DNA of 57,404 nt from Piscirickettsiaceae bacterium CG07_land_8_20_14_0_80_44_28. Lineage in GTDB: Bacteria > Pseudomonadota > Gammaproteobacteria > Thiomicrospirales > Thiomicrospiraceae. The notes beneath the pieces were generated by a model that searched no databases, was not told where the DNA came from, and saw only the letters and a list, made by a program, of their open reading frames with translations. The stretch is from contig PEWX01000107.1 of assembly GCA_002779995.1 (NCBI GenBank), forward strand, positions 1 through 57,404. The letters are read 5' to 3'. Positions 516-45,403 of the stretch are shown piece by piece. Both the position numbers and the translations under genes were made by a program. Each line of letters opens with the position of its first letter. Position 1 is the stretch's first letter.

Positions 516-1301
516 ATGCTAAATCAAATTGCACAATTAGGCGATCTGACATTAAAGCGTTTTAACAACACTGCCAGTGTTGTTAAATTTGCGCTGTCAG
601 TCTTTTGGCATGCTTTTTTACCCCAAAGTTATCATCCTGCCATGCGAATGGTATTGGTTAAACAAATCTACTTTACCGCTGTTCAGGTGTTGCCTGTTTT
701 TATCTTCATCGCATTTATTTTCGGTAGTATTATTATCGGTTCGGTGATTCTGCTGGCTTCAGAACTGGGGGTGTTAAATGAAATAGGCAGTATTTTGGTT
801 TATTTTATTTTTAACGAGTTTTCGCCATTTTTTACGGCATTGTTGGTTGCTTTGCGCTCAGGTGCAGCGGTTAATAGTGAGATTGCATTGATGCATGTTA
901 ACTATGAATTAAATGCGTTGCAGACTTATAAAATTGACCCAATTGACTATTTGTTTTTACCGAGAATTTTAAGCGGTGTTATTAGTGTTACTGGGTTGGC
1001 GATTGTTTTCTCGGTTATTATGCTGGTGAGTGGCTATGTGTTTTCAGTATTTTTTTTGCAAATGGAATTAATTAGTTACTTACGTATTTTATTAAATGCA
1101 GTGTCTTTGGATAATATTTTGATGTTGTTGCTAAAAAGCATGACGTTTGGTTTCTTTATAATGTTGCTGCCAATTCACAGCGGATTGAAAACGGGCAGTT
1201 GTTATAGTGATATTCCCGTTGCTGTTTTAAAAGGCATGGTGAGCTTATTTGTGGCGCTTTTTGTGATTGAGGCGGTGTCATTGCTGATATGGCTAGTGTA
1301 A
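516..1301 (+). CDS. MlaE-like ABC transporter permease
   Basis: A 261-residue inner-membrane protein of the MlaE/YrbE family, the permease of ABC systems that move phospholipids between inner and outer membrane. The sequence shows a long hydrophobic stretch from residue 49, the family-typical region around residues 85-145 (FNEFSPFFTALLVALRSGAA, then the LxxPRILSG segment) and further membrane spans to the C-terminus. Length equals that of typical MlaE. It is first in a four-gene unit and overlaps the next gene by 13 bases, so the two are probably translationally coupled. The Shine-Dalgarno sequence is poor (AAGGA lies about 16 bases upstream). Substrate is not shown by the sequence. Confidence 0.85.
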   Translation: MLNQIAQLGDLTLKRFNNTASVVKFALSVFWHAFLPQSYHPAMRMVLVKQIYFTAVQVLPVFIFIAFIFGSIIIGSVILLASELGVLNEIGSILVYFIFNEFSPFFTALLVALRSGAAVNSEIALMHVNYELNALQTYKIDPIDYLFLPRILSGVISVTGLAIVFSVIMLVSGYVFSVFFLQMELISYLRILLNAVSLDNILMLLLKSMTFGFFIMLLPIHSGLKTGSCYSDIPVAVLKGMVSLFVALFVIEAVSLLIWLV

Positions 1302-1753
1302 AATTTTTCAGACGTTATGCCGAAATGGAAGCGTGGATAAATAACCACCCTGAGGGGATAATCGTCTCTGATAAAACCCCTTTGCTGGCTAATTTGACGA
1401 TGAAGGAAAATATTGCGTTAATTGATGAAGTGCATCGCTTAATGCCTGTTCAGGAATCACAGCAACGGGCTAGCAGTTTATTGGCGAAGTTGAATTTAAC
1501 CACGATTGAAGAAAAGCGAGTTGGTACTTGTTCAGATTTGGAATTATTTGCTACGATGTTGTTGCGAGCAGAGCGGATGCCCAGAGAGGCCATCTATATT
1601 GTGTTACCGTTGTTATTATTGGGACACGCAGATGCGATTGAGCAGACTTTGGCGCTTCTAACCTTATTGGATAGTCAGAAAGATATTTTTATTCTAGAAC
1701 TGACCAGTAACCGAGTGCATTATCAAGGACAAGCATGTCATATTTCAGACTGA
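1289..1753 (+). CDS. Degenerate MlaF-like ABC ATPase lacking Walker motifs
   Basis: A 154-residue protein in the position of the MlaF ATPase. Residues 24-46 match the ABC helical region (PLLANLTMKENIAL resembles the pLLpnLTvxENIaL of MlaF-type ATPases), and the later CSDLELFATMLLRAERMP stretch sits where LSGGxxQRxxxARA would be, followed by a hydrophobic strand without the Walker B acid pair. The Walker A region is absent and there is no room for it, because the start lies inside mlaE. The reading frame is intact and overlaps both neighbours (13 and 19 bases), which argues against a random pseudogene. It may be a non-catalytic partner of the permease. The homology is inferred from short motifs and position. 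Confidence 0.55.
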   Translation: MASVKFFRRYAEMEAWINNHPEGIIVSDKTPLLANLTMKENIALIDEVHRLMPVQESQQRASSLLAKLNLTTIEEKRVGTCSDLELFATMLLRAERMPREAIYIVLPLLLLGHADAIEQTLALLTLLDSQKDIFILELTSNRVHYQGQACHISD

Positions 1754-2670
1754 AATTAGCGGTGGGTTTGTTTATGTTGACCCTGGGGGCGGTGACGTTA
1801 GGGTTAACAGGTTACTTACTTTTTCAAAAAGGGGTGTTTGCCCAAAAGTATCATTTCCATTTTACAACACCCAGCGCACAATCTTTTAAAGTGGGGATGC
1901 CGTTATTGTTATCTGGATTTGAAGTAGGGTATATCGATGATATTCATTTAACGGAAACGGGTCAGGTCAATTTGCGTTTTTATGTAAACGAGATGAATCG
2001 AAAGTGGATCACTGAGAATAGCCGGCTTATGCTAAAAAAACCGTTGATTGGCTCGCCTTATATTGAAATTCTTTCTGATCGAACATCACCCCTTTTAGAA
2101 GAGGGTCATGAAGTTGAGATGACTGTGAGTGATGATATTAATGACATTATTATTAAATTGGAACCGACGGTTAATCAATTGATAGCGATAGTGGCGGATT
2201 TGTCGTTAATTACGCACCAAATTTCTAATCCTGATGGCGCCTTGTTTCAGACGCTCAATCATTTAGAAGTGATTATTCGGGATTTAAAGGAAAGTCCTTC
2301 ATTTGTTTCAAGCCTAACGGGGAATCCCGAAGATGGTCAAACCTTATCGGATACCTTGAATAGAACCCAGGCGTCGATTGAAACGTTACAACAAACCATT
2401 TTAGGGGTGTCAGGCCTGGTCGAAAATTTAAATGAGACGATTGTGTTACCCTCAAAAGATATTATGGTGCAAGTTTCGACGATTCTGACGGATGTGACCC
2501 TTAAACTCAATACATTGGAAAGTACGGTTCAAGCAGTCGGTGGAACGGATCAAGATATTTTGATTTTAAAACAACAGTTGTTGAAGAGTGTAGAAAAAGT
2601 CAATCAACTGATTGATAAGGTTGATTATATGATGCAAGATGAAAACTCGAATCGTTTGGAGTTGCCTTAG
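1735..2670 (+). CDS. MlaD-like MCE-domain substrate-binding protein
   Basis: A 311-residue protein anchored by one N-terminal membrane segment (about residues 8-30), with an MCE domain at about 38-120 (FKVGMPLLLSGFEVGYIDDI, then PLIGSPYIEI) and a long C-terminal helical region rich in Leu, Thr and Ile. MCE proteins form hexameric lipid-binding rings or tubes in the periplasm and work with MlaE-type permeases. The start overlaps the preceding gene by 19 bases, and the stop codon directly adjoins the ATG of the next gene (TAGATG), so the four genes form a tight operon. It contains the 9-base partial repeat CAGGCCTGG at 2411. Confidence 0.85.
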   Translation: MSYFRLKLAVGLFMLTLGAVTLGLTGYLLFQKGVFAQKYHFHFTTPSAQSFKVGMPLLLSGFEVGYIDDIHLTETGQVNLRFYVNEMNRKWITENSRLMLKKPLIGSPYIEILSDRTSPLLEEGHEVEMTVSDDINDIIIKLEPTVNQLIAIVADLSLITHQISNPDGALFQTLNHLEVIIRDLKESPSFVSSLTGNPEDGQTLSDTLNRTQASIETLQQTILGVSGLVENLNETIVLPSKDIMVQVSTILTDVTLKLNTLESTVQAVGGTDQDILILKQQLLKSVEKVNQLIDKVDYMMQDENSNRLELP

Positions 2671-3423
2671 ATGAAAAGCAGGCTGTCAATTGTGTTAGGG
2701 GTTTCGATAGCGGTACTGTCGGGCTGCTCAATTAAGTTTACGCAACCGCAAAATGCTTGGCAGGTTAAGGCGGTTTCTGCCTTTCAAAATTATCAGCAAT
2801 ATTATTTGGAAGGACGAGTGATTTTAGCTGACAGCGAGCGTAAAAAAGCCATTAGTCAAGCAAAACAAAGCGCCAATCTGGAAACTTTAGCGCGGGTTTA
2901 TATTGCAGATTGCGCTATTCAGGCAGCGGTTCTTAGGTCGTCTGATTGTGCCTTGTATTTGCAGGTTCGTCCGTTGGTTAAGGCGCCAGAGTTGGAGGCG
3001 TATTATCATTTATTGTCTGGAGACCTCACCTTGTCAGAGGTGGATAAACTTCCGACACAATACCAAAGTTTTGCCAAGGCTTGGTTGTCTGGTAAAACTG
3101 GGGAACTGGATAAGTTGATATTGTCCATGGCATCGGTAGAGTCGCAATTGGTCGCGGCCTCTTTGGTGAAGGAAAAGCTTGCTCTAAATACGCTGAGAGA
3201 TTTAATTCAAAAAACGGCTAACTATGGCTATAAGTTAGCCAGTATTCGATGGATGGAATATTTGTCGAAAAGAACGCCTGATGCATTAGAAAGTCAGCAT
3301 CTTCTGCAAAAAATTGAGATATTGTCGCTGAGATATTGTCGCGAGAGCCCTAAAGGGATAAATCTCGGGTTAGAATCACCCTTGAGAAAAACGTTTGTCT
3401 TATCCCAAGGGACGAGTTTTTGA
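2671..3423 (+). CDS. Lipoprotein of the Mla-like operon
   Basis: A 250-residue protein with a lipoprotein signal peptide and lipobox LSGC (cysteine 19). The remainder is mainly helical, with no domain recognised. It starts immediately after the mlaD-like stop codon, so it is likely a functional partner, for example an outer-membrane or periplasmic component of the lipid transporter. Some Mla/MCE operons carry such auxiliary lipoproteins, and that role is inferred here from position alone. Its stop codon is one base from the stop of the convergent gene, with no terminator between them. Confidence 0.6.
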   Translation: MKSRLSIVLGVSIAVLSGCSIKFTQPQNAWQVKAVSAFQNYQQYYLEGRVILADSERKKAISQAKQSANLETLARVYIADCAIQAAVLRSSDCALYLQVRPLVKAPELEAYYHLLSGDLTLSEVDKLPTQYQSFAKAWLSGKTGELDKLILSMASVESQLVAASLVKEKLALNTLRDLIQKTANYGYKLASIRWMEYLSKRTPDALESQHLLQKIEILSLRYCRESPKGINLGLESPLRKTFVLSQGTSF

Positions 3424-3424
3424 G

Positions 3425-4480
3425 CTATTTTTGGGTCACGGTAGGCATATCAAAAACCGGTGTCCATTCAGCACCGTTTTTAGCGGTGTCGTTATACCAA
3501 GCAGCATCCTGTAATTGAGTGCTATTCGGGTTAAGGTTGTTGGTGTCCTGGATGCCGCCGGTGCTTGGGTTGAAAACGCCATGCCCATCTGTGCCAGTTG
3601 GATCAAAGTCTTCAAATCGCCAGGCATTGGTTAGATCAAAGGTAATCGTTACCTCAAATTGACTGTCGTCAGTGACGGTTAAGTTTAGGGGTGAGGCAAT
3701 ATTGTAAATGTCTTGTTCGCTGCCTTGGTTGGGATCATAGTAGGTAAAACCATTGTCAATCAGTGCGTTATTCCAAAGGTCTGTGTCTCCATAGTAACCT
3801 CGGGCATGCCCCGTTTCCTGGTCAACGCCTGCTGCCCCATTTTGCGTTTCAGAACGAATGTTGCTTACATTTGAAACAATCCAGGGTTTGTCCCCGATGG
3901 CCCAACCTTTTTCAATGCCATCAGCGCCGATTAGGGTAATGTCGCCCTGGTGATGGCCTAGGTTTCCTTCAGCGCTAAAGTCATCATCACTTAAGTAGAC
4001 ACGAATGACTTGAGATTCCACGGGAATGTTCATTGGCATGGTAATTTGATGATAATAAATTTCCGCTGAAATACTTTCATATTCGCCATTCGGGATATCA
4101 CTACTATTAATGACATAGGAATCGGTGCTTAAGTCGATAACGGTGCTATTGGTAAGGGTACCACTGTCTGGGATGAGGGCGTAGGTGGTGCCGTCTTTGT
4201 GGGTTAAGGTGGCACTTTTGAATGCCACTTTAAAGTTGGATGGTGTGATGGCTGTCCAAACTCCGCCATCCTCATCGGCGTCCTGCCCAAAGGTGGTTTC
4301 TGCTCGAGTTGTTTTGGTCGTGGTGTCATCATACTTGGCACCAATAATAAACTGTGCTGATTTTTGTTGGTCAGTGGTGTTGTTTGTTTCTGTTGTTGTG
4401 TCGCCACTACTTCCCCCGCAACTACTTAAAAGTGCAATTAAAGGAATGAAGACCATATATGGAGTGATTGAAAGTTGCAT
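3425..4480 (-). CDS. Unrecognised lipoprotein
   Basis: A 351-residue protein with a signal peptide ending in the lipobox LSSC (cysteine 21), followed by a Gly/Ser/Thr/Asn linker typical of surface or outer-membrane lipoproteins. The mature part is rich in Asp, Thr and Asn and appears mostly beta. It includes an acidic DADEDGG stretch near residue 68. No family is recognised. The ATG is preceded by AAGGAGG-like sequence (read on the minus strand just upstream of 4480). It is monocistronic, facing the Mla-like operon. Confidence 0.6.
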   Translation of the reverse strand: MQLSITPYMVFIPLIALLSSCGGSSGDTTTETNNTTDQQKSAQFIIGAKYDDTTTKTTRAETTFGQDADEDGGVWTAITPSNFKVAFKSATLTHKDGTTYALIPDSGTLTNSTVIDLSTDSYVINSSDIPNGEYESISAEIYYHQITMPMNIPVESQVIRVYLSDDDFSAEGNLGHHQGDITLIGADGIEKGWAIGDKPWIVSNVSNIRSETQNGAAGVDQETGHARGYYGDTDLWNNALIDNGFTYYDPNQGSEQDIYNIASPLNLTVTDDSQFEVTITFDLTNAWRFEDFDPTGTDGHGVFNPSTGGIQDTNNLNPNSTQLQDAAWYNDTAKNGAEWTPVFDMPTVTQK

Positions 4481-4713
4481 TTTGCCTCCTTGAGTGGGGG
4501 GAACGATTGATACTGAATATTTAATGACTAATTTCAGGTTTGATTAAGCTGTTCGGGGGTATGATTAATCCTGAGTAAGAATATAGCATAAAGTTAGATA
4601 GCTTGCTATAACGGCTTGCAAACACACTCAAGGTTTATATATCTCAATTGAATATCGTGTATATTGGCGGTAATATTAAGTCTAGTTTGTTTTTAATAAG
4701 AAGGGATGTAGTT

Positions 4714-5211
4714 ATGAAAAACCGTCCATTAAAGTACTTTTTTTCTTTGTTACCCAGTTTGATGTTGGTCTCTCTAACGGTACAGGCCGCGCCGCAATAT
4801 ATTTCCAGTAACAAGGCTAAGGTCTTGAAAAAACCTAATTTTCAAGCAGATTTGGTAGCCGAATTGGTGAAGGGCGATCAAGTCAATGTGCTTGACCAGC
4901 AAGGTGTTTGGTTGAACGTGTCCGTCGAAAAAAAAACTGGCTGGGTGTCAAAGTTCTTAGTGAGAGAAACCCCCACCAATGATCGGGTGACAGTATTACC
5001 GGGTGATGACCAAACGGAACTAAAGGATGTTAGGCGTCGTGCCTCTGCTATTACCACTGCTGCTGCGGCACGTGGATTGGCTGCAACTGCTCGGGCAGAA
5101 GCAAGTGGTGATATCGTTGCTAATTTAGAGGGCGTTCGTTATATGGAATCCTTTAGCGTTTCGAGTCAGGAACTAGAGCAATTTAGTCAACCCTTGGTAG
5201 GAGGTCGCTAA
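4714..5211 (+). CDS. Periplasmic SH3-domain protein
   Basis: A 165-residue secreted protein. The start at 4714 is preferred over an in-frame start at 4648 because AAGGGA lies 7 bases upstream and a clean signal peptide follows (cleavage after VQA). Residues about 28-80 form a bacterial SH3 domain (SSNKAKVLKKPNFQADLVAE, then GWVSKFLV). The C-terminal half is Ala/Arg/Glu-rich and probably helical. Such domains often bind peptidoglycan or proteins. Its TAA overlaps the ATG of the M48 protease gene by one base (TAATG), so both are coupled in the same operon. Confidence 0.75.
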   Translation: MKNRPLKYFFSLLPSLMLVSLTVQAAPQYISSNKAKVLKKPNFQADLVAELVKGDQVNVLDQQGVWLNVSVEKKTGWVSKFLVRETPTNDRVTVLPGDDQTELKDVRRRASAITTAAAARGLAATARAEASGDIVANLEGVRYMESFSVSSQELEQFSQPLVGGR

Positions 5212-6071
5212 TGAAAACAGTATGGCGCGTAAGTGATTCAAAATTATTAAAGGTGGCTGTGGTCGTTTTAGGTATGGCGGTAATGTCTAATGGTATGTCT
5301 CAGCCAGAGGATAATTTTCATAAGCGACTTTTTGCATCGATTCCCGATGCACCTTACACCGAAGATGATATTGAGACAGAGATTCTATTCGGCCGAGAGT
5401 TGGCGAGTAAAGTTCTTGGAAAATACCAACCACTTCAAAATGATCAGTTAAATGCTTATGTGAATAAAGTGGGTCAGGTCGTGGCACAAATGAGCGAGCG
5501 ATCTGAATTGCAATACCATTTTATCGTCCTTGATACCGATATGATTAATGCTTTTGCCGCACCCGGCGGTTATATCTTTGTTACGAAAGGGGCCTTAAAT
5601 AATGTTGAAGATGAATCGGAACTGGCTGCAATTTTAGCACATGAAATTGGCCATGTTGAGTTACGACATTATGTCAAAAAAGTGCGCTTACGCAGCGAGA
5701 AGGGGAGCAAAGAGGATGGCTTAGGTGCAATTCTTTCCGGTGGTGGTCGAGCAGCCACTCAAGCCTTTAATGAAGCCTTGGATGAAACGATGGAAATACT
5801 CTTTAATAAGGGGCTGCAATCGAAAAAGGATGAGTTTGAAGCGGATCGTACCAGTGTCTTTTTGCTGGCTAATGCGGGCTATGATCCAACGGCATTGATG
5901 CGTTATTTTAATCGAATTGAAAAGAATCAATCTGTGCAGATGCAAATCTTGTCTGAAACTCACCCGCCATTAGGTGAACGGATAAATGAAATGGACACTT
6001 TAATTGAGAAAAATGGCTTATCAACCATTAACTTGGCCAAGTTACAGGAGCGTTTCAATGAATATCACTAA
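5211..6071 (+). CDS. M48-family periplasmic zinc metalloprotease
   Basis: A 286-residue protein with an N-terminal hydrophobic export signal (about residues 12-30) and the zinc motif HEIGH at 144-148. The third ligand is Glu208 in EFEAD. The domain resembles the catalytic part of BepA/LoiP-type proteases that act on outer-membrane proteins, but the TPR region of BepA is missing. It is sandwiched between an SH3 protein and a beta-barrel gene, with a 1-base overlap upstream and a 14-base overlap downstream. This suggests a role in quality control or maturation of the envelope proteins made by the operon. Confidence 0.8.
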   Translation: MKTVWRVSDSKLLKVAVVVLGMAVMSNGMSQPEDNFHKRLFASIPDAPYTEDDIETEILFGRELASKVLGKYQPLQNDQLNAYVNKVGQVVAQMSERSELQYHFIVLDTDMINAFAAPGGYIFVTKGALNNVEDESELAAILAHEIGHVELRHYVKKVRLRSEKGSKEDGLGAILSGGGRAATQAFNEALDETMEILFNKGLQSKKDEFEADRTSVFLLANAGYDPTALMRYFNRIEKNQSVQMQILSETHPPLGERINEMDTLIEKNGLSTINLAKLQERFNEYH

Positions 6072-7419
6072 TTTAACATTAAAAAGATCAATTTTAGTTG
6101 CCATCTCTACTATGGTGATGTCAACGCCAACATTTGCGGATGAATATCATTACAAGGATATTTTAGTGGGGGATCGGTCTGCCGGGATGGGGGGGGCTTA
6201 TACTGCGATTGCAGATGATGCTTCTGGTTTGTATTACAACCCGGCCGGTGTGATTTATGGAACCAGTCCAAAAATTTCCGGCTCTGTGAATGCTTATAAT
6301 TATAAGACCATTGAGTACAGTAATATTAATAGCAGTAATCATAAATGGCAGCGTAATTCCTCTGGAATGGTTGCAAATTATTTCGGCGCCACTCAGCCTT
6401 TAGGGGATGACTGTACGGTTGGTTTTTCGATCGCAATTCCTAATTATGATTTGGAAGACCAGAGTGATCAATTTACAAATTTCACGCCCAGCACGAAAGC
6501 ACAAAGCCTAGGGATGACAAAAATAGATAACCAACAAATTGACTTTAATAATCAAGATACCACCACCTTGGCGGGGGTTTCTTATGCAACCGCCGTCAAT
6601 AAAGACTTGTCAGTTGGTGTCACTCTTTATGGTTATATGCGCAAAAAAGAGCTGACAAACTGGCAGTATATTAAGGCTACCGGGGTTATTCCGGCAGGCC
6701 AATCTAATGCAGGTCAAAATGCTTTATTAGACGGCACTTATTACCAAAAAATTCAAACAGAAGAATTTGGTTTACAGCCACGCTTAGGGGTTATGTGGGC
6801 ACCGGCTCCCAAAGTATCCGTTGGGTTAATGGCTCAAACAACCTTTATGTTGAGTCAGAATCCTGAGAGTCGAGAAAACGCAACCTATAATTTATGTACC
6901 GAAAGTGCCACGGTTGCAGGGGATTATTCAAACTGTTCAACTTATGATAACCAGCTGGATCCATTAGATTTAAGTCAGGCTGCCAGCTCAGCATTGCAGA
7001 AAAACCAAGACAATGAATTGCCGGTAGAACTCAATCTGGGCGTGGCTTATTTTGCAACCGATGCCTTGCTGTATTCTGTAGACTTTGGCTATGCTTCTAA
7101 AACAGATATTTATGAGGCAACATGGAATCTCGCCGGTGGGGTTGAGTTCTTCTTGAATCCAGCTTGGGCGGTTAGAGGGGGCGTCTATACCAATAATGCA
7201 AATACGAAAAGTGATGTGGCAACCTATAAACAAGATCATGTGGATATGATCGGTGGCGCCTTGTCTTTGTCTCGGTATACCAAGGGGTCGAATATTACGG
7301 TTGGGCTAAATTATGCTCAAGGTTCAGGTCAAGCTGACTTGTTTAATTCATCAACACGTGTACAAAATGTTTCGATTAACAGTATGAATCTGTTTATATC
7401 CACTGCAGCTTCATTTTAG
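6058..7419 (+). CDS. FadL/OmpP1-like outer membrane beta-barrel
   Basis: A 453-residue protein. The start at 6058 is chosen because AGGAG lies just upstream and the signal peptide (cut after TFA) then begins properly; a longer frame from 6004 would bury it. The mature N-terminus has the DRSAGMGGAYTAIADDASGL and YYNPAG pattern of the OmpP1/FadL and PorV group, which transports hydrophobic molecules. The rest is a pattern of amphipathic strands ending in a C-terminal phenylalanine, as expected for BAM-inserted barrels. The start overlaps the protease stop by 14 bases. The substrate is unknown. Confidence 0.75.
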   Translation: MNITNLTLKRSILVAISTMVMSTPTFADEYHYKDILVGDRSAGMGGAYTAIADDASGLYYNPAGVIYGTSPKISGSVNAYNYKTIEYSNINSSNHKWQRNSSGMVANYFGATQPLGDDCTVGFSIAIPNYDLEDQSDQFTNFTPSTKAQSLGMTKIDNQQIDFNNQDTTTLAGVSYATAVNKDLSVGVTLYGYMRKKELTNWQYIKATGVIPAGQSNAGQNALLDGTYYQKIQTEEFGLQPRLGVMWAPAPKVSVGLMAQTTFMLSQNPESRENATYNLCTESATVAGDYSNCSTYDNQLDPLDLSQAASSALQKNQDNELPVELNLGVAYFATDALLYSVDFGYASKTDIYEATWNLAGGVEFFLNPAWAVRGGVYTNNANTKSDVATYKQDHVDMIGGALSLSRYTKGSNITVGLNYAQGSGQADLFNSSTRVQNVSINSMNLFISTAASF

Positions 7420-7436
7420 AAATTGGAGAACATCAA

Positions 7437-7943
7437 ATGAAATGCACAAAACATTTAGCTGTACTCGGGTTAGCAGGGGCTTTAATGTTTTCAGGGTGTG
7501 CTTCAGCGCTTGATAAACCCGTGAATCTTGAACCGGTTGTGGTGTCACAGCCGGGAGATTCGCGACTGAGCTGTGATCAGCTTGAGCCCAAGTTATTGTT
7601 GATTGAAAAAGCGGTACAGGACTTGTTTAAAATCAAAGAAGATCGGCAAAAGCGGGTGTTTGGTATCCAAGCAGTGACGGATATGGCGCTTGCCTTTTTA
7701 TCGGGGAGCGCATCTGCAAACAATCATCTTGAACGCACAACTTTGGATGGACTGACAAAGCCAGAATTAGTGCGTATTGAAAGTCTTGCCGACCGTCATC
7801 ATCAATTACTTAAAATCGCAAAAAATAAAAAATGCACATTTGTCACTAAAATGGAAAAAAACATGGCAAAATACAAGGAAATGAATTCTACAGCCGTGCC
7901 TGCGGAGGAGGGGCAGTCCTATCGCCAGCGCATAACCCCTTAG
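7437..7943 (+). CDS. Small lipoprotein
   Basis: A 168-residue protein with a lipobox FSGC (cysteine 21) after a standard signal peptide. The mature chain is helical and basic, with a Lys-rich segment near residues 122-147. No family is recognised. It lies 17 bases after the FadL-like gene and 21 bases before the TraF-like gene, so it belongs to the same envelope operon. Confidence 0.6.
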   Translation: MKCTKHLAVLGLAGALMFSGCASALDKPVNLEPVVVSQPGDSRLSCDQLEPKLLLIEKAVQDLFKIKEDRQKRVFGIQAVTDMALAFLSGSASANNHLERTTLDGLTKPELVRIESLADRHHQLLKIAKNKKCTFVTKMEKNMAKYKEMNSTAVPAEEGQSYRQRITP

Positions 7944-7964
7944 TGCTAAATAGAGGATAAACCT

Positions 7965-9359
7965 ATGCAATTAAAAAAATTGACGCTCGCAACCCTGTTG
8001 GTTATGTCAAGTTCTGCTAGCCTTGCGGCATCAAAACCCCTTCTGACGGGGTCTAACTTAGGATATGGCCAGGCTAGTAATAATCATACCATTTTCTCTA
8101 GTACGGCAAACCCCGCTTGGATTGGTGGGAATTTACATATTGAAAATAATTTTGGTTTTGGATTAACTGGCGGATTTAGGTTTCAGCAAAAAGGGTTTGG
8201 TGAGTTGAATGATCAGTATGTGAATAACATCAAACCGATTCTAACCAAATTTGACAGTTCTTCGCAATCTGCGGTTGTTCAAGCAACAGAATTGGAGCAA
8301 GAGCTGGTCAACATGATTACCAAAGTACGGGATGACTTTTCCTTTCAATTGGATGCGCAAGGAAATCTGCCACTGGTTTTTACCCATAATAAATTAGGCG
8401 GATTTGGGCTAGAGATGTCTTTTGCAGCCTCCGGCACGGGTGGGCTTTTAAGTGATGATCGTCCGGTCACTTTCGACCCTAGCCAATTGGTTCCTACTGG
8501 GTTGAATAATACTTTTACCGATAACGACTTGGTTAATGCCTTGGATGTTAAAACGGGAATCTATCTTAAGACGGCGGTTTCAACAGAGGTAGCCTTAACC
8601 TATGGTGACGAGTTTTATCAAAACGATGACGGCCAGTTAGCGGTTGGCTTCAGAGCCAAAATGATTCAAGCCAGCTTGGTCAAGTCCGTCAATTCTTTTA
8701 AAAAATACCTGACACAAACAGCTAATAATCAAGATATTACCATTGCATCAGATCTCAGTGACCACAGTGATTTAAATGAAACTGAGAATGCTTTTGGATT
8801 AGACCTTGGTGCGCAATGGTTCGCCGAAAATTGGATGGCAGGCTTGATGGTGCAAAACATCAATAGCCCTAAATTTAATTATAACGATCTGGGGGTCGGA
8901 ATCTCTAATCAAGCTTATACTGAAAAATATTTTGCCAGGCAATATGCGCTCAACGAAGCCGTTGAATTAACACCTCAAGCGCGTGTAGAAGCAGCCTATT
9001 ATAGTAAAAATCGCCATTGGACGCTGTCGGGGTCAGCAGATTTAAATGATGCACCTAATCTTTTAAACCAGAAGCAACAATGGCTCTCTGTAGCAGCCGC
9101 TTATGCAACGGATGCGTCGGGTGATGAATGGTATTATGCATTGGTCCCTGACATCAGAGTTAGTTACCATTCTAATCTTGCTGGTGATAAGCGTAGCTTC
9201 TATGCCCCCGGCCTATCTTGGGGACCATTAAATCTGGATATTGCTTTTGAAGAAATGAGCGATTTATCAAAATTGGGTAACTTGGGTTCCGCAACAGATG
9301 AAACAATTGATTTGCCCAAAATGGTGCAAGTTAATTTAGGTCTAGAGTTTTATTTCTAA
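7965..9359 (+). CDS. TraF-like (TraF_2 type) outer membrane protein
   Basis: A 464-residue protein with a signal peptide cleaved after LAA and a long beta-rich mature chain ending in LGLEFYF, a C-terminal aromatic signature of barrels. The N-terminus (GSNLGYGQASNNHTIFSSTANPA) resembles the group annotated as conjugal transfer protein TraF (TraF_2), which despite the name is common on chromosomes without conjugation genes. No conjugation genes are near. It is the fifth gene of the operon. The family call rests on recognition of the N-terminal pattern and is moderate. Confidence 0.55.
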   Translation: MQLKKLTLATLLVMSSSASLAASKPLLTGSNLGYGQASNNHTIFSSTANPAWIGGNLHIENNFGFGLTGGFRFQQKGFGELNDQYVNNIKPILTKFDSSSQSAVVQATELEQELVNMITKVRDDFSFQLDAQGNLPLVFTHNKLGGFGLEMSFAASGTGGLLSDDRPVTFDPSQLVPTGLNNTFTDNDLVNALDVKTGIYLKTAVSTEVALTYGDEFYQNDDGQLAVGFRAKMIQASLVKSVNSFKKYLTQTANNQDITIASDLSDHSDLNETENAFGLDLGAQWFAENWMAGLMVQNINSPKFNYNDLGVGISNQAYTEKYFARQYALNEAVELTPQARVEAAYYSKNRHWTLSGSADLNDAPNLLNQKQQWLSVAAAYATDASGDEWYYALVPDIRVSYHSNLAGDKRSFYAPGLSWGPLNLDIAFEEMSDLSKLGNLGSATDETIDLPKMVQVNLGLEFYF

Positions 9360-9380
9360 AAAAGGGTTGAGGCGCTTATC

Positions 9381-10973
9381 ATGAAAAAATTATCAAACAG
9401 TTTATTTCAAAAGTCGATTATGGCCACCTCGGTTTCAGCGATATTATTGGCGATGGCCAGTTGTGGCGGTGGTGGGAGTAGTGATTCCGGATCTGTATCA
9501 ACGGTGCAGATGTCGGGTGCTGTGGTAGACGATTATGTTGCTTATGCAACCGTTTATGTCGATGTCAATAAAAATGGCAAATATGATTCAGAGTTCGAAC
9601 CCAGTGCCTTCACGGATAAAGACGGCTATTTCTCAGTGGCAAAAGATGGCACAAATTATTGTGAAAATCCGGCATCACGCAATTGTTTACAAGGCGATGC
9701 TTCATTGAAAGAAGGGGGGGTTATCCGAGTCGAGACGGGACGGGATTTGCTAACCACTCAGGTTTATAATGCGACCATGAGCTTGCTATTAGACAATAAT
9801 ACCAGCGGTTTAAAGGTGACCGCTATATCCACTCTAAATCAAGAAATTGAAAACTTGTCAAATGATGATATTCCCGATGGATTGACCAAGGCTGAATTTA
9901 AAACTAAATTTAACGACTTTATGAGCAGTTTTCTTGGGACGCAAACGCGAGCGACTGGGGAGGCACCAGATCCCAATAGCATAGATCCATTTGAGGCTAA
10001 TGTGCGAAATCAAGCGCGAGCGTTTAAAATGAGTATTCATTTTCATAAATTAGCGGAAGCCATCGCACAGGCTTTTGTCAATGAAAATACTAATCCGACT
10101 ACTCAGTTAAAAGATTTCTTGCCCGCTACATATCGTGCATTATTGTTAAATGCTGATTTTAGTGATGGTGAAAAAGTTGATCCACTTTCTGCGATTTCGA
10201 CAAAGGCCTCATCTATTTTCAGTTTCGTGGCAACGAAAACATCGAAAACGAATCCGTTTAAAGCCAGTGAAATTAGTGAATTGAACAAGTATCTAAACTG
10301 TGTCCTGGCAGTTTCAGAAGATAAAACTAGTTATAGTGATAATGCGGGCAATTGTAATGTAAGCCCATCAGCATCGCCAACATTGGCAGAATTGAAAAAG
10401 AGTTTATTTAGTGCAGAGGTTGCTAAAGACGTGGCATTGGAGGATAACTCTACTGACCGGCTTAAAAATGCAGTTGCCATTAGAACCGATAATACCTTTG
10501 ATTATACTTCTCGAGACTTTACAACTACTTTAGCAAGTGCCAAAAAAACTGCCAGTGGTGCTTTTAATCCAAATATTGGGACGACCAAAGTCTTTGAGGC
10601 CTTCGGAGGCAAAAATTTAAAAATAGCCAATCAAACAAATGGCTTCCGCTTTTTCTTCCAGTCAGATGGGACGGTTTCTGTTTGTCAAAAAGAAGAAAAT
10701 CAATATAACTTAATTAAGGGGAGTTACGCCCAAGATCCTAATCAGAAGTTTGTTGCTTACATTAATGTACTGGGCAGTACTTATACTTTAAAGAACTTGG
10801 AACCAACGGGAGTGAGTGAATGTAGTGGCGCGACTTCCTCATGTATCGCCACTTCTTATCGGTCATTGGAAACAAATGAATATGTACAAGAGTTCTTTGC
10901 AGATTCATTCGATTTGACTTCAACAATAACCAAGGTGCCAACGACGACTGAGCAATGTAAAACGGTATTCTAG
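9381..10973 (+). CDS. Large lipoprotein with calcium-loop-like N-terminus
   Basis: A 530-residue protein with lipobox MASC (cysteine 28) and a glycine/serine linker. Residues about 44-80 (VDVNKNGKYDSEFEP, followed by TDKDGYFSV) look like a transthyretin-like or carboxypeptidase-regulatory fold carrying a dockerin/EF-hand-like Asp-rich loop. The rest has no recognised domain and contains several cysteines. It is the last gene of the operon, followed by a strong terminator. Its lipobox region (SCGGGGSSDSG) is of the same style as the lipoprotein at 3425-4480. Confidence 0.6.
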   Translation: MKKLSNSLFQKSIMATSVSAILLAMASCGGGGSSDSGSVSTVQMSGAVVDDYVAYATVYVDVNKNGKYDSEFEPSAFTDKDGYFSVAKDGTNYCENPASRNCLQGDASLKEGGVIRVETGRDLLTTQVYNATMSLLLDNNTSGLKVTAISTLNQEIENLSNDDIPDGLTKAEFKTKFNDFMSSFLGTQTRATGEAPDPNSIDPFEANVRNQARAFKMSIHFHKLAEAIAQAFVNENTNPTTQLKDFLPATYRALLLNADFSDGEKVDPLSAISTKASSIFSFVATKTSKTNPFKASEISELNKYLNCVLAVSEDKTSYSDNAGNCNVSPSASPTLAELKKSLFSAEVAKDVALEDNSTDRLKNAVAIRTDNTFDYTSRDFTTTLASAKKTASGAFNPNIGTTKVFEAFGGKNLKIANQTNGFRFFFQSDGTVSVCQKEENQYNLIKGSYAQDPNQKFVAYINVLGSTYTLKNLEPTGVSECSGATSSCIATSYRSLETNEYVQEFFADSFDLTSTITKVPTTTEQCKTVF

Positions 10974-11015
10974 AATAGCGTCTTAGTCGTTTTTATACGG
11001 GTTTATACTCGAAAG

Positions 11016-11053
11016 AACCGCGCCCTTTGTAAATAAAGGGCGCGGTTTTTTTA
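11016..11053 (+). terminator. Strong rho-independent terminator
   Basis: A 13-bp perfect stem (AACCGCGCCCTTT, 11016-11028, with its complement at 11035-11047), a six-base loop and a run of T. It closes the six-gene envelope operon and, having a partial T-run on the other strand, may also end the mevalonate operon that converges from the right. Confidence 0.9.
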
Positions 11054-11070
11054 TGTATTAGCGGTGTGAT

Positions 11071-12237
11071 CTAACAGATTTTTTTATAATAACGGATATC
11101 GTTTTGGATAGCGGTTAGCCGATAGGGACCAAGGTTATTTTTAGCGAAGGTAATGTTATTTTGGCCTAAAGAGTCGGTGTGATAGAAGTCTAAATAGGTT
11201 TGATAGTCTAATGCTTGCCGATCTGCAATTTGCTGTTGATGGCTTTTTGTCATTAAGTATTTTTGATAGTTAGGTTGAATCAATCCACTAAAAAATTCTG
11301 CAACACAACCTGATCCATAACTAAAAAAACCAAATCGTTTTTGAGTGAGATCTTGATTTGAATTGTCTAAAAAAGAACAAAATCCGATAAATAAAGAGGC
11401 ACTATAACTGTTTCCAACCAAACGATTGTAGACTTGGCCTGGCTGTGTTTGTCTTTTAAAGGTGTCATCAGAAACCGAAATCGCTACTTTTTTAATCAAG
11501 GTTTTATGCGCTTTTTCAGTCATTCTTGAGAAGGGTATGTGATAGCAAAACGCATCAATCTCTTCAAAGGTTCGACCTGTCTCCTCGGTAAAGTGTTCCC
11601 AGGCGTGTTTTAAACTGTTTAAATAGACTTTCGTTGAATATTTACCATCGACTAACGCGGTCATCCGGTGATTGGGTCGCCAAAAATCCATCACATCTTC
11701 TGTGTAGTAACCTGATCCGGCTTCAATGGTTAAAATTCGTGGGTTCTCTGTTACTAACATTGCAACTGCGCCACATCCTTGTGTGGCTTCTCCGGAAGAA
11801 TCCACATCATATTTGGCGATATCCGCAGCGATCACTAAAATGGTTTCTTTAGGGTTAGCTCTCACCATGGTGGTGGCCATTTGTAAGGCAGCCGTGCCGG
11901 CATAACAAGCATGCTTGAATTCAACAACACGACAACGATTCGGTAAATCAAGCAGTCCATGCAAAAAAGCACCCGCGGATTTAGATTGATCTACGCCGGA
12001 TTCGGTGGCAAATAACACAGCGGTAATTTGTTTTTTGTCGATTTGATCTAATATAGGCGCCGCTGCTTTTGCAGATAGGGTAACAATGTCTTCATCCGGG
12101 GGGGCGATTGACATTTTTTCTTGGCCAATGCCAATTAAATATTTGTTTGGGTCAGTGCCTTTTTCCTGCGCATAGGTTTTCAGATCCAAATAATAGTTGG
12201 AGGTTGCAAAATGAATTAAGTCGATTCCCACTTTCAT
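11071..12237 (-). CDS. mvaS: Hydroxymethylglutaryl-CoA synthase
   Basis: A 388-residue enzyme joining acetyl-CoA and acetoacetyl-CoA to HMG-CoA, the first committed step of the mevalonate route to isoprenoids. Catalytic residues fit the bacterial family exactly by count: Glu79 (ATES), Cys111 (KHACYAG) and His233 (YHIPFSR), the same numbers as in the Staphylococcus enzyme. Last gene of a three-gene unit with fni and mvaA (19 bases after fni). Finding this pathway in a gammaproteobacterium, most of which use the MEP route, suggests an old lateral acquisition or a lineage-specific replacement. Confidence 0.93.
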   Translation of the reverse strand: MKVGIDLIHFATSNYYLDLKTYAQEKGTDPNKYLIGIGQEKMSIAPPDEDIVTLSAKAAAPILDQIDKKQITAVLFATESGVDQSKSAGAFLHGLLDLPNRCRVVEFKHACYAGTAALQMATTMVRANPKETILVIAADIAKYDVDSSGEATQGCGAVAMLVTENPRILTIEAGSGYYTEDVMDFWRPNHRMTALVDGKYSTKVYLNSLKHAWEHFTEETGRTFEEIDAFCYHIPFSRMTEKAHKTLIKKVAISVSDDTFKRQTQPGQVYNRLVGNSYSASLFIGFCSFLDNSNQDLTQKRFGFFSYGSGCVAEFFSGLIQPNYQKYLMTKSHQQQIADRQALDYQTYLDFYHTDSLGQNNITFAKNNLGPYRLTAIQNDIRYYKKIC

Positions 12238-12256
12238 CTAATAAAACAGTCTTCTG

Positions 12257-13333
12257 TTACGACTCAATTAAAGAGTCGTTTAAAAATAAATTCGCCAAGG
12301 TTGGCGCGCCAAGTAAGAATTGCGCTGTTCGAAATTCTTGATGTAGTTGTTGTATTGTTTCAAAAGTTGCTGCCGTTGATGCCAAAGCAGGCTTTAGTAA
12401 TGGCGACGCGACGCCACAAATTTGACCGCCCATTATAACCGATTTCACCATATCTATGCCATTGCGAATCCCCCCGCTGGCAATAAAGTTCGCCTGATTT
12501 TGATAAGCGCGCGCTGCGATTAAGGCTTGGGGGGTTGTCAGTCCCCAGTCTTGAAACAGAACGCCAATCTGTTTGTCCGATTTGTTTGAACTACGATTGG
12601 CTTCGATTCGGCTCCATGAAGTGCCCCCTCTGCCGGCTAAGTCAAACCATTGAATGCCGGCATCCAGCCCCAGTTGGATATCTGCAGCTGAAAGTCCGCA
12701 GCCAACTTCTTTTAGGATAACGGGTACAGGCAGGGTATCAACCAGTCGTGCAATTTTTTCGGCAAGGTGTGCAAAGTTGGTATCCCCTTCGGGCTGAATG
12801 ACTTCCTGAAGCGGATTAAGATGAAGATAAAGTGCATCTGCTTCAAGGGTGTCAATCATCATTTTTGCTTGATCCGCGCCAAATCCATAATTTAATTGCA
12901 CTGCGCCCATATTCGCAATTAAGGGGATGGAAGGGGCGAGTTGTCTGAGTTGAAAACTGCCTAAAGCGGCTTTGTTTTCAATCATTGTTCGTTGTGAACC
13001 GACAGCCATTGCCACTTTACCGGCTTCCGCCGCTTCCGCCAGATGTCGGTTAATGTCGGTGAGTTGATGAGCGGCACCGCCAGTCATGGAGGAAATAATG
13101 AGCGGAAAAGATAATTTTTTGGATAAAAAAACGGTTTGACTGTCGATGGCTTCAAAGTCACATTCGGGCAACCCTCTGTGTGTCAGCTTAATCGCATCAA
13201 AGCCTGACTGGTTACGTTCAATCAGTTTATCCTTAAGGATCCAGTCAATGTGATCGTGCTTGCGTTGAGTGATATTGGTGTGGCTCATGGTTTTATGCTG
13301 AATGGCTTTGACGTTCGAGTCGAAGGTGGGCAT
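12257..13333 (-). CDS. fni: Isopentenyl-diphosphate delta-isomerase, type 2
   Basis: A 358-residue FMN- and NADPH-dependent enzyme that interconverts IPP and DMAPP. Evidence includes the RKHDHI motif near the N-terminus, SSMTGGA, AVGSQRTM and the C-terminal flavin-binding GGIRNGID. The start at 13333 is kept because GGGAGAG lies 8 bases upstream, although it overlaps mvaA by 41 bases; the next ATG at 13288 would remove the overlap but has no ribosome binding site. Type 2 isomerase with mevalonate enzymes is a common bacterial combination. Confidence 0.9.
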   Translation of the reverse strand: MPTFDSNVKAIQHKTMSHTNITQRKHDHIDWILKDKLIERNQSGFDAIKLTHRGLPECDFEAIDSQTVFLSKKLSFPLIISSMTGGAAHQLTDINRHLAEAAEAGKVAMAVGSQRTMIENKAALGSFQLRQLAPSIPLIANMGAVQLNYGFGADQAKMMIDTLEADALYLHLNPLQEVIQPEGDTNFAHLAEKIARLVDTLPVPVILKEVGCGLSAADIQLGLDAGIQWFDLAGRGGTSWSRIEANRSSNKSDKQIGVLFQDWGLTTPQALIAARAYQNQANFIASGGIRNGIDMVKSVIMGGQICGVASPLLKPALASTAATFETIQQLHQEFRTAQFLLGAPTLANLFLNDSLIES

Positions 13334-14363
13334 TCATGAGCTCTCCCGGGTTGGTTTGTGCTGCCAATAGCGATAATTCACCGCACAGCGCTGTTGCGCC
13401 GGCGATACAAGCGAGTCGTCGGGAATTTTCACCAGGCCTGGCGGTTTTTTCAGCACACTTTAGTTGTTGAAGGTTGTCGAGTACAAAATCAAGGCCTTTA
13501 CCATTTCCAACCGTTCCCACAATTAAATTTGGAAGGGTTGTCGAGAAATATAAGTCCCCTTCGGGTGTGAGTTCGATGTGATTAATGGCTTGAGAGCCTT
13601 CAACAATATTGGCGGCATCCTGACCCGTCGCCAAGTAAAATGCCAGTAGCATATTGGCAACATGTGCATTGGCCGTTCTGAGGCCACCTGAAATGATGCT
13701 GCCCAATAAATCTTTTTTGATGTGAAGATCCACAATGGCTTCCGGGGTGGTTTTTAAAAATCGTTTGACCAGTTTTTTGGGAAGGGTTGTTTCACACACC
13801 ACATTTTTACCGCGACCGAGAATGCCATTGACTGCAGAAACTTTTTTGTCGGTGCAGTAATTACCGGAAATAGAGATATATTGTAAGTCAGGATGTTGCT
13901 CAAGAATCCAAGGAATGAGTTTATCTGCCGCGTTGGTCACCATATTGTGACCTGAGGCATCGCCTGTGTTAAATTCCAGTCTCAAATACAGTAGCTTGCC
14001 GACAATTTGACTATTAATCTCCAGTAATTTGGCATAGTGGCTGGATTGAGAGACCACTTGTTGCAAACGTGATTGCGCAGATTTTATTTGCTGGCTTTTT
14101 TGTAATGCAATGGTGGCATTGGGCGCTTCCAGTAGAATCGAGCGTGTCATGCGTTCATCAATAATAGTGACACGAATACCGCCGGCATGATGTGTTATGC
14201 GTGCACCGCGAGCTACCGATGGCCATAAAGGAGTTTCGTAGGTGGCTAAAGGGACACAAATGTGATCGTCTACGACATCGCCAATCAGTTTGAGTGGGCC
14301 GACGGATCGCATGGGGATTTGCGCAAATGCTGTCTGATTTGAAGTGGGTGATTCATTTTTCAT
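13293..14363 (-). CDS. mvaA: Hydroxymethylglutaryl-CoA reductase (class I type)
   Basis: A 356-residue enzyme reducing HMG-CoA to mevalonate. Visible family blocks are TGDASGHNM, the lysine block GNYCTDKKVSAVNG, GQDAAN, the VGTVGNGKG stretch and the C-terminal NAHLRLER holding the catalytic histidine. The DKK block and C-terminal His resemble class I (archaeal and eukaryotic-type) reductases rather than the class II enzyme of Gram-positive bacteria. It is the first gene of the mvaA-fni-mvaS operon. The mevalonate kinases and decarboxylase are not in the window. A CCAGGCCTGG palindrome lies in the coding region. Confidence 0.88.
   Translation of the reverse strand: MKNESPTSNQTAFAQIPMRSVGPLKLIGDVVDDHICVPLATYETPLWPSVARGARITHHAGGIRVTIIDERMTRSILLEAPNATIALQKSQQIKSAQSRLQQVVSQSSHYAKLLEINSQIVGKLLYLRLEFNTGDASGHNMVTNAADKLIPWILEQHPDLQYISISGNYCTDKKVSAVNGILGRGKNVVCETTLPKKLVKRFLKTTPEAIVDLHIKKDLLGSIISGGLRTANAHVANMLLAFYLATGQDAANIVEGSQAINHIELTPEGDLYFSTTLPNLIVGTVGNGKGLDFVLDNLQQLKCAEKTARPGENSRRLACIAGATALCGELSLLAAQTNPGELMNAHLRLERQSHSA
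13432..13441. repeat. CCAGGCCTGG palindrome, copy 1
   Basis: Exact 10-bp palindrome inside mvaA, followed on the plus strand by CGG and six T. It encodes Arg-Pro-Gly on the gene strand. Confidence 0.9.
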
Positions 14364-43198: not shown

Positions 43199-45403
43199 TT
43201 ATTTGGTGGTTAAGGTAAAGACACCGTCCCAGTTTTCTGGCGGTGGGGTTTTAAGATAGGCTTGGCAGCGTTGATCGTAAAGGGCTTTAAAGTGTACAAA
43301 TGGATCATCAGGCAATTGTTGAAAAATTTGGTTTGCATGCAGAAAATCCTTAGCATGATAGGCATCAAAAGCTTGATGGCAAATCTCAACCAGCTTAAAA
43401 GCTTCTTCTAAATCGGGATCATCAAGATCCGCTAACGGCAAGTAAATTTTAACGGGTTTATTTTTTCCTTTTACCTTCACTTGATCAATGAGTGCGCAGG
43501 GAATTTGTTGGTGAATTTCCGCTTGGGTAAATTCAGAAATGAGCATTTTTAAACCATATTGTTTGGTTAAGCCTTCTAAGCGCGAGCCTAAATTAACTGC
43601 ATCACCGATAACGGTGTAATCCAGTTTTTGACTGGAGCCTATATTGCCTAAAATGACCGAACCCGTATTGCCGCCAACCCCAATTTTAATCGTCGGTAAA
43701 CCCCTTTCAGTTAGCGCTTGATTAACCTTATTGACTTTTCGAGTCATGTGAATCATCGCTCGAGTCGCATGTAATGCGTGCTGTGGGTCGGGCAAAGGGG
43801 CGCCCCAAAATGCCATAGTGGCATCGCCGATAAATTTATCCATAGTGCCTTTGAAGTCGAAGGTGACTTGGGTCATGGCATCCAGATGGATATTCAGTAG
43901 GGTCACGACTTCACCCGGTGATAAGGATTCCGATAGCGTGGTAAAGCCGCGAATGTCAGAAAACACCACGGTCATTTGTTCTTCTTTGCCCACTTCTGCT
44001 TGGATTTGATCTTGGTAATTGTCGAGTACCATATTTAATGCAGAGGGTGAAACGTATTGTGAAAGCATATTGCGAACCCGACGTTTTTCACGACCTTCCG
44101 TCGCGGAGAGATAGCCACTGATCATTAACCAGGTTGTTAGAATGCTTGCTAATAAGGGCGCTAAATCCCAGTTTTGAGCAAAATTGGCTTGCGCCCAAAT
44201 GCCCAAGATGACAATGATACTGGCCAATAAGAATGGGTAGATGGTTTGTAGCAGGATTGCATCTTGAAAAATTGCCAGACGCATGGTTAATAGCGCCAGA
44301 AAAAATACGAGTATGACAACCCAGTAAGCGGGTACTTGGTAAACAAAGTCTTTATTTAATAAATTACTGGTAATGGAGGCATGCAAAAAGACCCCTGGCC
44401 AACGGCTTTCTAGCGGGGTGGTTTTCATATCTTCTAAGCCGACGGCACTGGTGCCAATAAAAACAATTTTATTGCTGAACTTTTCCGGGTTAAGCAGGCG
44501 AGGGTCAGTATAAAGTGCTTCTAAATTACCTTTGCGTAGTTCATCAATAGAGGCTAAAACACTCCCAATGGAGTAGGTCGTGAAGTCCTTATAGAAATTG
44601 ACTTCATAAAATCCTTGTCGGTCTAATGGGATCTTTAAGCCCCCAAATTTTAGCATGGGTGGATTACTTGTTTGTTCGACGGTATCAATTTTGAGCGGGT
44701 CAATTAACGGCGCGACTGATAAAACCGGGTAAAAGTCGCCTAAGAAATCTCGGAATAAACGGGTGCGGCGATAGACACCATCACTGTCCGGGGAAAACTC
44801 GACCACGCCGACATGTCGAGCGTTTTTATACAGACCGGGAAAGGGAATATAACGTGTATTGTTTTGGCTTTGTTTGAGGTTAGTGATATTGGGGATGGCA
44901 AATTTGCTTTTAAAAATATCCGGTAAGGGTCGATTTGGGAGGGGGTTGGATGGGTCGTGTAATAATTGAATGGCGTGAATGGCAATACCCGATTCGGCTG
45001 TTGACTCAATAAAGGCCAAGTCATGTTCTGATTGGTTTTTGTTTTCTAAAAGAGCGCGTTCAGTAAAGAGAATATCGAATGCAACACTTTGGGCACCCCC
45101 CATAGTCATAAATTCCAGGACATCTGCCCAAACAGATCTTGGCCAAGGCCAACGCCCGACAATGGGTTCTAAGGTGGATAGCGAGGCCTCATCGACCAGT
45201 AATACCACTATGTCCGGGTTGGCGGTGGCTTCACCCCGCAGGAGTTTGGTTTTGGCGTCATCTATTTGCCACTCTAGGGTATTGAAGCCGCCGAGCAAAA
45301 AGATGGCTGAAACCAAAATCCCGGCAGTAAATGCCAAAAGGCTACCGTGAAATAAACGACGTTGTCGTTTAGTCAGTGAAATGGATAGCCCAAATTTTTT
45401 CAT
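43199..45403 (-). CDS. CHASE2-domain adenylate cyclase
   Basis: A 734-residue membrane sensor. After one N-terminal span (about 18-40) an extracytoplasmic CHASE2 domain spans about 45-340, then three membrane helices (about 360-432) and a class III cyclase domain (about 475-620). Metal ligands Asp483 (FSDIRGFT) and Asp527 (GDATMAFWG), and the Lys523/Asp595 pair that specifies ATP over GTP, are present, so cyclic AMP is the likely product. A helical tail follows. The input signal is unknown. Confidence 0.9.
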   Translation of the reverse strand: MKKFGLSISLTKRQRRLFHGSLLAFTAGILVSAIFLLGGFNTLEWQIDDAKTKLLRGEATANPDIVVLLVDEASLSTLEPIVGRWPWPRSVWADVLEFMTMGGAQSVAFDILFTERALLENKNQSEHDLAFIESTAESGIAIHAIQLLHDPSNPLPNRPLPDIFKSKFAIPNITNLKQSQNNTRYIPFPGLYKNARHVGVVEFSPDSDGVYRRTRLFRDFLGDFYPVLSVAPLIDPLKIDTVEQTSNPPMLKFGGLKIPLDRQGFYEVNFYKDFTTYSIGSVLASIDELRKGNLEALYTDPRLLNPEKFSNKIVFIGTSAVGLEDMKTTPLESRWPGVFLHASITSNLLNKDFVYQVPAYWVVILVFFLALLTMRLAIFQDAILLQTIYPFLLASIIVILGIWAQANFAQNWDLAPLLASILTTWLMISGYLSATEGREKRRVRNMLSQYVSPSALNMVLDNYQDQIQAEVGKEEQMTVVFSDIRGFTTLSESLSPGEVVTLLNIHLDAMTQVTFDFKGTMDKFIGDATMAFWGAPLPDPQHALHATRAMIHMTRKVNKVNQALTERGLPTIKIGVGGNTGSVILGNIGSSQKLDYTVIGDAVNLGSRLEGLTKQYGLKMLISEFTQAEIHQQIPCALIDQVKVKGKNKPVKIYLPLADLDDPDLEEAFKLVEICHQAFDAYHAKDFLHANQIFQQLPDDPFVHFKALYDQRCQAYLKTPPPENWDGVFTLTTK

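Follow-up and report, generated by a model that had tools for sequence, protein, structure and literature searches.

The Six-Gene Run and Its Surroundings

The window analyzed here, a stretch of 57,404 nucleotides from a genome of 2.28 Mb in 122 contigs (the source genome), carries a run of six open reading frames (ORFs) on its forward strand. The first three, which we treat as the core, encode an exported SH3_3 protein (4714-5211; Pfam, 35.9 bits vs. a cut-off of 27), a periplasmic M48 metalloprotease of 286 aa that carries an HEIGH motif and no TPR half (5211-6071; Peptidase_M48, 107.8 bits vs. 20.3), and a 453-aa protein predicted to form an outer-membrane barrel of the FadL fold (6058-7419). 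Three accessory genes follow: a small lipoprotein of 168 aa (7437-7943), a barrel-type protein of the TraF_2 family (7965-9359; PF13729, 115.5 bits vs. a gathering cut-off of 25), and a large lipoprotein of 530 aa with a CGGGG start (9381-10973). Neither lipoprotein has a Pfam match above any cut-off. The signal sequences and lipoboxes of the six ORFs were assigned by eye, and the starts at 4714 and 6058 are chosen ATG codons, the mechanical ORF list beginning both at an upstream TTG.

An earlier, sequence-only reading of the window had described these genes as a tightly spaced, same-strand operon closed by a strong terminator, and in these respects it holds up well. All six ORFs lie on the forward strand where that reading placed them. 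The SH3 and M48 genes overlap by 1 base and the M48 and barrel genes by 14, and the gaps after the barrel, small lipoprotein and TraF-like genes are 17, 21, and 21 bases. At the 3' end of the operon stands a terminator-like hairpin with a T run (11011-11052, forward strand; -29.7 kcal/mol, z -8.0 vs. 200 shuffles). A consensus scan of positions 3500-12500 did not include this hairpin among its terminators, and promoter-like sites in the same interval were not in excess (19 vs. 20.5 expected).

The surroundings merit brief description. Upstream, positions 516-3423 (forward strand) hold an Mla-like set consisting of a permease-like ORF, a short ORF, an MlaD protein (Pfam) and a lipoprotein; the odd-looking short middle ORF, of 154 aa, occupies the usual place of the ATPase. 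Between this set and the operon, and divergent from the latter, lies a gene for a 351-aa lipoprotein with a CGGSSGD start (3425-4480, reverse strand), for which Pfam gave no match and which is 72% identical in the nearest relative that has all six genes (G006), a genome placed in the same genus as the source genome. Downstream, positions 11071-14363 (reverse strand) include an HMG-CoA synthase (NCBIfam equivalog), whose neighbors are presumably a type 2 IPP isomerase and an HMG-CoA reductase; these are mevalonate-pathway genes in a Hydrogenovibrio-type bacterium.

The Core Proteins

The predicted FadL fold of the barrel comes from an AlphaFold2 model (pLDDT 86.8, pTM 0.82), which compares best with E. 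coli FadL (Z 36.8 over 381 residues, rmsd 3.4) and TodX (Z 33.0), followed by FadL-fold chains from Bacteroidota BAM complexes (Z 32.6, 32.3, and 32.3); a type 9 translocon chain falls below the FadL and BAM chains (Z 26.8), a comparison that ranks folds only. We read the BAM chains as BamG from the structure titles and from an article that reports BamG as the anchor for a surface lipoprotein in the F. johnsoniae BAM complex (PMC12611786). In the hatch region of the barrel, N61-P62-A63-G64 is invariant in 50 sequences. By its predicted fold and this N-P-A-G stretch the protein resembles FadL/TodX and BamG, but it differs from them in lacking any FadL-family Pfam match up to E 1 and in being tied to an M48 protease and a cyclase. 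Its Pfam scores for UPF0164 (20 vs. a cut-off of 21.4) and LigD_N were below cut-off, as was the NCBIfam PorV_fam score (32.7 vs. 90).

The fold matches and the invariant hatch residues could be taken to mean that a hydrophobic compound is imported through the barrel in the manner of FadL/TodX, with the M48 and SH3 proteins as housekeeping helpers and the cyclase either sensing what has been imported or merely regulating the transporter. Besides the absent FadL-family match, the gene neighborhood speaks against such a role, as mechanical clustering of the neighbors at the loci described below brought up no recurring transporter, ligase or degradation gene. We regard an importer as improbable.

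The M48 protein has 3c37 and BepA as its nearest solved structures. It shares the M48 domain with BepA and LoiP, but lies far under both NCBIfam cut-offs (BepA, 99.1 bits vs. 570; LoiP, 54.6 vs. 365) and is without the TPR half. A restricted regular expression found HExxH in 65 of 71 M48 copies. One relative (G013, locus L166) encodes an M48 protein of 626 aa rather than 286 (4666-6546); after it come the barrel and a lipoprotein of 1684 aa with cadherin repeats. The SH3 protein is marked by a C-terminal stretch, R-x-R-A/T-S ... A-A-R-G-L, within which R107, R109, S111, A118, R120, and G121 are invariant in an alignment of 11 sequences, and a loose form of the motif occurs in 43 of 64 copies. 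Pfam returned no FecR match for the SH3 protein or the barrel up to E 1, nor for the cyclase up to 0.01.

Recurrence of the Core Cassette

When 369 genomes of the host's class were searched with the barrel, 35 matched at E 0.001 and 14, the source genome among them, at E <1e-40, the next match being at 4e-9. All 14 of these strong barrels are preceded by the M48 gene, which is itself preceded by the SH3 gene in 13; the contig of the remaining genome (G223) starts inside the set. A further gene, encoding a cyclase, precedes SH3 in 11 of the 14, and the two of these cyclases that were scanned both combine CHASE2 and Guanylate_cyc domains.

An alignment of 13 barrels, used to search a wider collection, retrieved 149 relatives, the best 80 of which were analyzed (12 of the 80 loci are the same places as in the class-genome barrel or TraF-locus samples). 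Among these best 80 of 149, 57 loci hold the cyclase, SH3, M48, and barrel genes within 6.5 kb; the remainder have SH3 and M48 only (8), M48 only (4), cyclase and SH3 (1) or none of the partners (10, half of which have <5 kb of upstream sequence). Carriers of the four-gene core include the two Oceanospirillum records. The profiles used for these loci had one misframed or misplaced seed of nine for the cyclase (L066) and one of nine for SH3 (L070), with X at stops. Matches to M48 and barrel are separated by a median of 45 bases and at most 665 (61 loci). At 8 of the 57 four-gene loci, seven with betaproteobacterial titles and one titled 'Proteobacteria', the barrel gene is inverted, in a tail-to-tail orientation, and yet remains adjacent. 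Cassette-linked cyclases occur in records of Pseudomonadota, Nitrospirota, Nitrospinota, Thermodesulfobacteriota, Myxococcota and Bdellovibrionota; most of these records are metagenome-assembled genomes (MAGs), and some of the phylum assignments may therefore be affected by misbinning. In a MAG (L071, 5432-7542, and L121) the cyclase gene is split into two overlapping ORFs, perhaps through a frameshift or an assembly error.

The neighbor clustering, which covered the 80 loci and the window, yielded no further partner of comparable constancy, its largest cluster spanning 12 loci and including a GAF/HD protein. The conserved unit is the SH3 protein, the M48 protease and the FadL-fold barrel (4714-7419), with a CHASE2 class III cyclase as the usual fourth gene. 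The suggestion in the sequence-only reading that these genes form a functional unit survives in so far as an M48 protease is tied to one barrel, in an SH3-M48-barrel order that recurs in many lineages. Nine loci (L140, L143-146, L148, L151, L153, L155), all deltaproteobacterial by title and four with <5 kb upstream, have a related barrel with no partner found. The family of such barrels thus extends beyond the module, which counts against a strict bond between barrel and signaling. At four of these loci (L140, L143, L145, L148) the barrel lies near a recurring set that by eye looks like an ABC transporter.

The Accessory Genes

The second half of the run behaves differently from the core. Of the 55 genomes searched, 16, including the source genome, have a TraF-like homologue, and the 15 other loci were examined over 9.6-15 kb each. 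Two of the 15 hold other genes of the set: the relative of the same genus (G006) has all six in the same order, and a genome of another genus (G014) has all but the small lipoprotein, its SH3 gene being truncated where the contig ends. At the other 13, TraF stands without the other five genes within the span examined. It is followed in seven of these 13 by a protein of 242-257 aa, which in an eighth is divergent. A homologue of this usual neighbor sits on another contig of the source genome (C11:73367), so TraF seems to have left its neighbor behind and, from this sequence comparison, looks to have been recruited into the six-gene run. A Thiotrichales MAG (L077), its contig broken inside the barrel gene, carries in a row the barrel, the small lipoprotein, TraF, the large lipoprotein, and a 245-aa protein.

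The sequence-only reading had gone further and taken all six genes for a single outer-membrane machine. Tight spacing, a single terminator, the identical order in G006, and the retention of most of the genes in G014 and L077 favor that idea, but the 13 solitary TraF loci and the survival of TraF's usual neighbor elsewhere in the source genome do not, and we think it very improbable. The co-conservation on which such a machine would depend extends to SH3, M48, and barrel, whereas the TraF-like protein stands apart from that core in most relatives examined, the small lipoprotein was seen in the window, G006, and L077, and the large one in these three and G014. The TraF_2 barrel and the two lipoproteins are additions in the host lineage.

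Two functional assignments for the TraF-like protein were considered and set aside. A role in conjugation was dropped after the protein gave no plasmid match. Type IX secretion was dropped as well, the barrel and the TraF-like protein both failing the NCBIfam cut-offs; the latter reaches 17.2 vs. 90.55 for T9SS_PorP_fam and just passes the Pfam cut-off for PorP_SprF (24.1 vs. 22.3), far under its own TraF_2 score.

The model of the large lipoprotein was not usable (pLDDT 45). By eye, its MSGAVVD stretch recurs in a cassette-adjoining lipoprotein of locus L078 and, in weaker form, in the 1684-aa protein of G013 with its cadherin-like repeats. The notion of a large lipoprotein in every cassette was abandoned after inspection of neighbors and a lipobox count. 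The count applied a regular expression to mechanically called ORFs at 61 forward loci and matched 5 of the 32 ORFs lying first downstream, compared with 6 among 420 other ORFs; two of the five positives (L109, L122) come from one bin, and the control is full of spurious ORFs, so that the resulting P of 0.0004 is biased and not trustworthy. Five flipped cassettes (L099, L107, L110, L123, L129) have a lipoprotein family of the CGGG type nearby, and a protein of ~300 aa, which may be a barrel, is common to L099, L103, L110, L123, and L129.

The lipobox count, despite its compromised control, bears on the main alternative, in which the set is an accessory unit for outer-membrane assembly or quality control, with a BepA-like M48 protease, a BamG-like barrel, surface lipoproteins such as the large one of the window as clients, and a cyclase that does no more than report on assembly. 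Consistent with this are the BepA structure among the nearest to the M48 protein, the fit of the barrel model to the BAM chains, and the reported lipoprotein-anchoring role of BamG. FadL nevertheless fits the barrel better than the BAM chains do, and a common fold shows no function; moreover, 27 of the 32 downstream ORFs have no lipobox match, and an assembly role alone does not explain a co-inherited cyclase. We judge a dedicated assembly unit unlikely, if less so than an importer.

The CHASE2 Cyclase

In the source genome the fourth member is displaced. A cassette-linked cyclase used as query has a single match there (43202-45358, reverse strand; 42% identity over residues 8-738), within a 734-aa ORF of the same window, ~32 kb from the core cassette (43199-45403, reverse strand). 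CHASE2 (2.2e-47) and Guanylate_cyc (2.4e-22) domains occur together in this one protein (Pfam, 43202-45403), a CHASE2 class III nucleotide cyclase.

Co-inheritance argues for a bond between cyclase and barrel. At 1e-60 the cyclase matches 98 of the 369 class genomes; the top 14 score at least 408 bits, the next 320, and those 14, from nine families, are exactly the 14 strong-barrel genomes. The query in this search was a single real protein, which served to check the profile-based cyclase result. The thresholds for both sets were fixed afterwards, at clear gaps, and the 14-vs-14 agreement is a raw count in this sample of 369 that ignores kinship. The cyclase is away from the cassette in the source genome and in G271, and in G223 it is on a different contig, the cassette contig beginning before M48. 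Among the 55 relatives, an orthologous cyclase (E <1e-150) is present in five genomes (G000, G006, G013, G014, G019) and a strong barrel in the first four; G019, with a cyclase and no barrel, is evidence against the bond. Its cassette-type cyclase (L169, G019:C129, 179-2377) has a C-terminus without the W-D-G-V-F tail, which is present in the cyclases of the window and of the other three family members and in most linked ones inspected. Thiomicrospira microaerophila (L147) has a cyclase fragment ~6 kb from SH3, beyond an 1834-aa lipoprotein, that is 48-60% identical to the five family cyclases and far from the barrel-free ones.

A quick tree, with SH-aLRT as its only support measure and a midpoint root for drawing, compared 51 of the 58 cyclase matches at the loci (seven fragments were dropped) and the five family cyclases, the window's included, with nine of ten cyclases from barrel-free genomes (L177 was left out). 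The linked and family cyclases share one side of a branch with 99% SH-aLRT, the barrel-free ones standing on the other. Six catalytic positions are unchanged in 51 of 51 linked and five of five family cyclases: two Asp, which we take to bind metal, a Lys and a Thr, which we take to contact the substrate, an Asn, and an Arg. These residues are intact, but the same six positions are kept in nine of nine barrel-free cyclases, so they do not mark the module.

The source genome contains one detected class III cyclase, and a search of it for a class I cyclase found none. Three genomes that have no strong barrel (G007, G002, G008) gave neither class III nor class I cyclases, and a fourth (G009) has another class III cyclase.

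A Candidate Route from Outer Membrane to cAMP

Taken together, we give an even chance to the reading that FadL-fold barrel, M48 protease, SH3 protein and CHASE2 cyclase are a four-protein signaling unit spanning the envelope. Co-inheritance by itself shows no contact between parts; the signaling step is proposed because of the nature of the cyclase and because of precedents in other bacteria. According to two articles, signaling through the CHASE2 cyclases CyaK and CyaD1/D2 of S. meliloti needs the outer-membrane barrel NsrA (PMC7529298, PMC13001267). The present set would be analogous in pairing a CHASE2 cyclase with a barrel, a partnership suggested here by co-inheritance in 14 of 14 genomes. 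NsrA differs in being a large protein with its barrel at roughly residues 600-1200 (PMC7529298), whereas the FadL-fold barrel here has 453 aa and its SH3 and M48 partners are proteins of their own. Three Clr-target genes of S. meliloti, one with a FecR domain, are reported to be dispensable for perception (PMC5498481). A Campylobacterota cluster reportedly combines a CHASE2 cyclase, a phosphodiesterase, a FecR-domain outer-membrane protein, and a TPR protein (PMC9239204), and is similar in grouping CHASE2 cyclase genes with an outer-membrane protein. The core described here, in contrast, has no FecR and has M48, SH3, and the FadL fold instead; it is a variant of signaling between CHASE2 cyclases and outer-membrane barrels that falls outside the FecR form. 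A literature search that covered few subscription papers returned no description of the SH3/M48/FadL-fold barrel/CHASE2 cyclase set.

The following scheme can be envisaged. The barrel, presumably in the outer membrane, would meet an outside cue, which might be membrane damage or else a ligand, either hydrophobic or a lipoprotein at the surface. In the periplasm, the M48 enzyme would aid assembly of the barrel, or else cut a faulty barrel or its cargo, and the exported SH3 protein would either convey the barrel's state to the inner membrane or tie the barrel to peptidoglycan. There, the CHASE2 domain of the cyclase would read that state and alter output of its probable product, cAMP. The TraF_2 barrel and the lipoproteins added in the host lineage would perhaps be surface clients. 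More specifically, we propose tentatively, as something short of an even chance, that the FadL-fold barrel and its dedicated M48 protease, acting through the SH3 adaptor, control the CHASE2 cyclase, that this enzyme is the sole cAMP source of the cell, and that outer-membrane state would thereby set cAMP both in autotrophs of the Hydrogenovibrio type and in several other phyla.

To our knowledge, the cue is not known for nearly all CHASE2 domains. With its defined barrel, protease, and adaptor, a partnership of these four genes would provide a concrete upstream path for CHASE2 signals in several phyla. As to possible readers of the output, the source genome encodes six cNMP-binding proteins, among which a loose regular expression for a CRP-type pocket matched one, a 626-aa protein in which the match lies outside the expected motif. 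By eye, the cNMP-binding protein at locus L181 contains a GE...PRVAS stretch.
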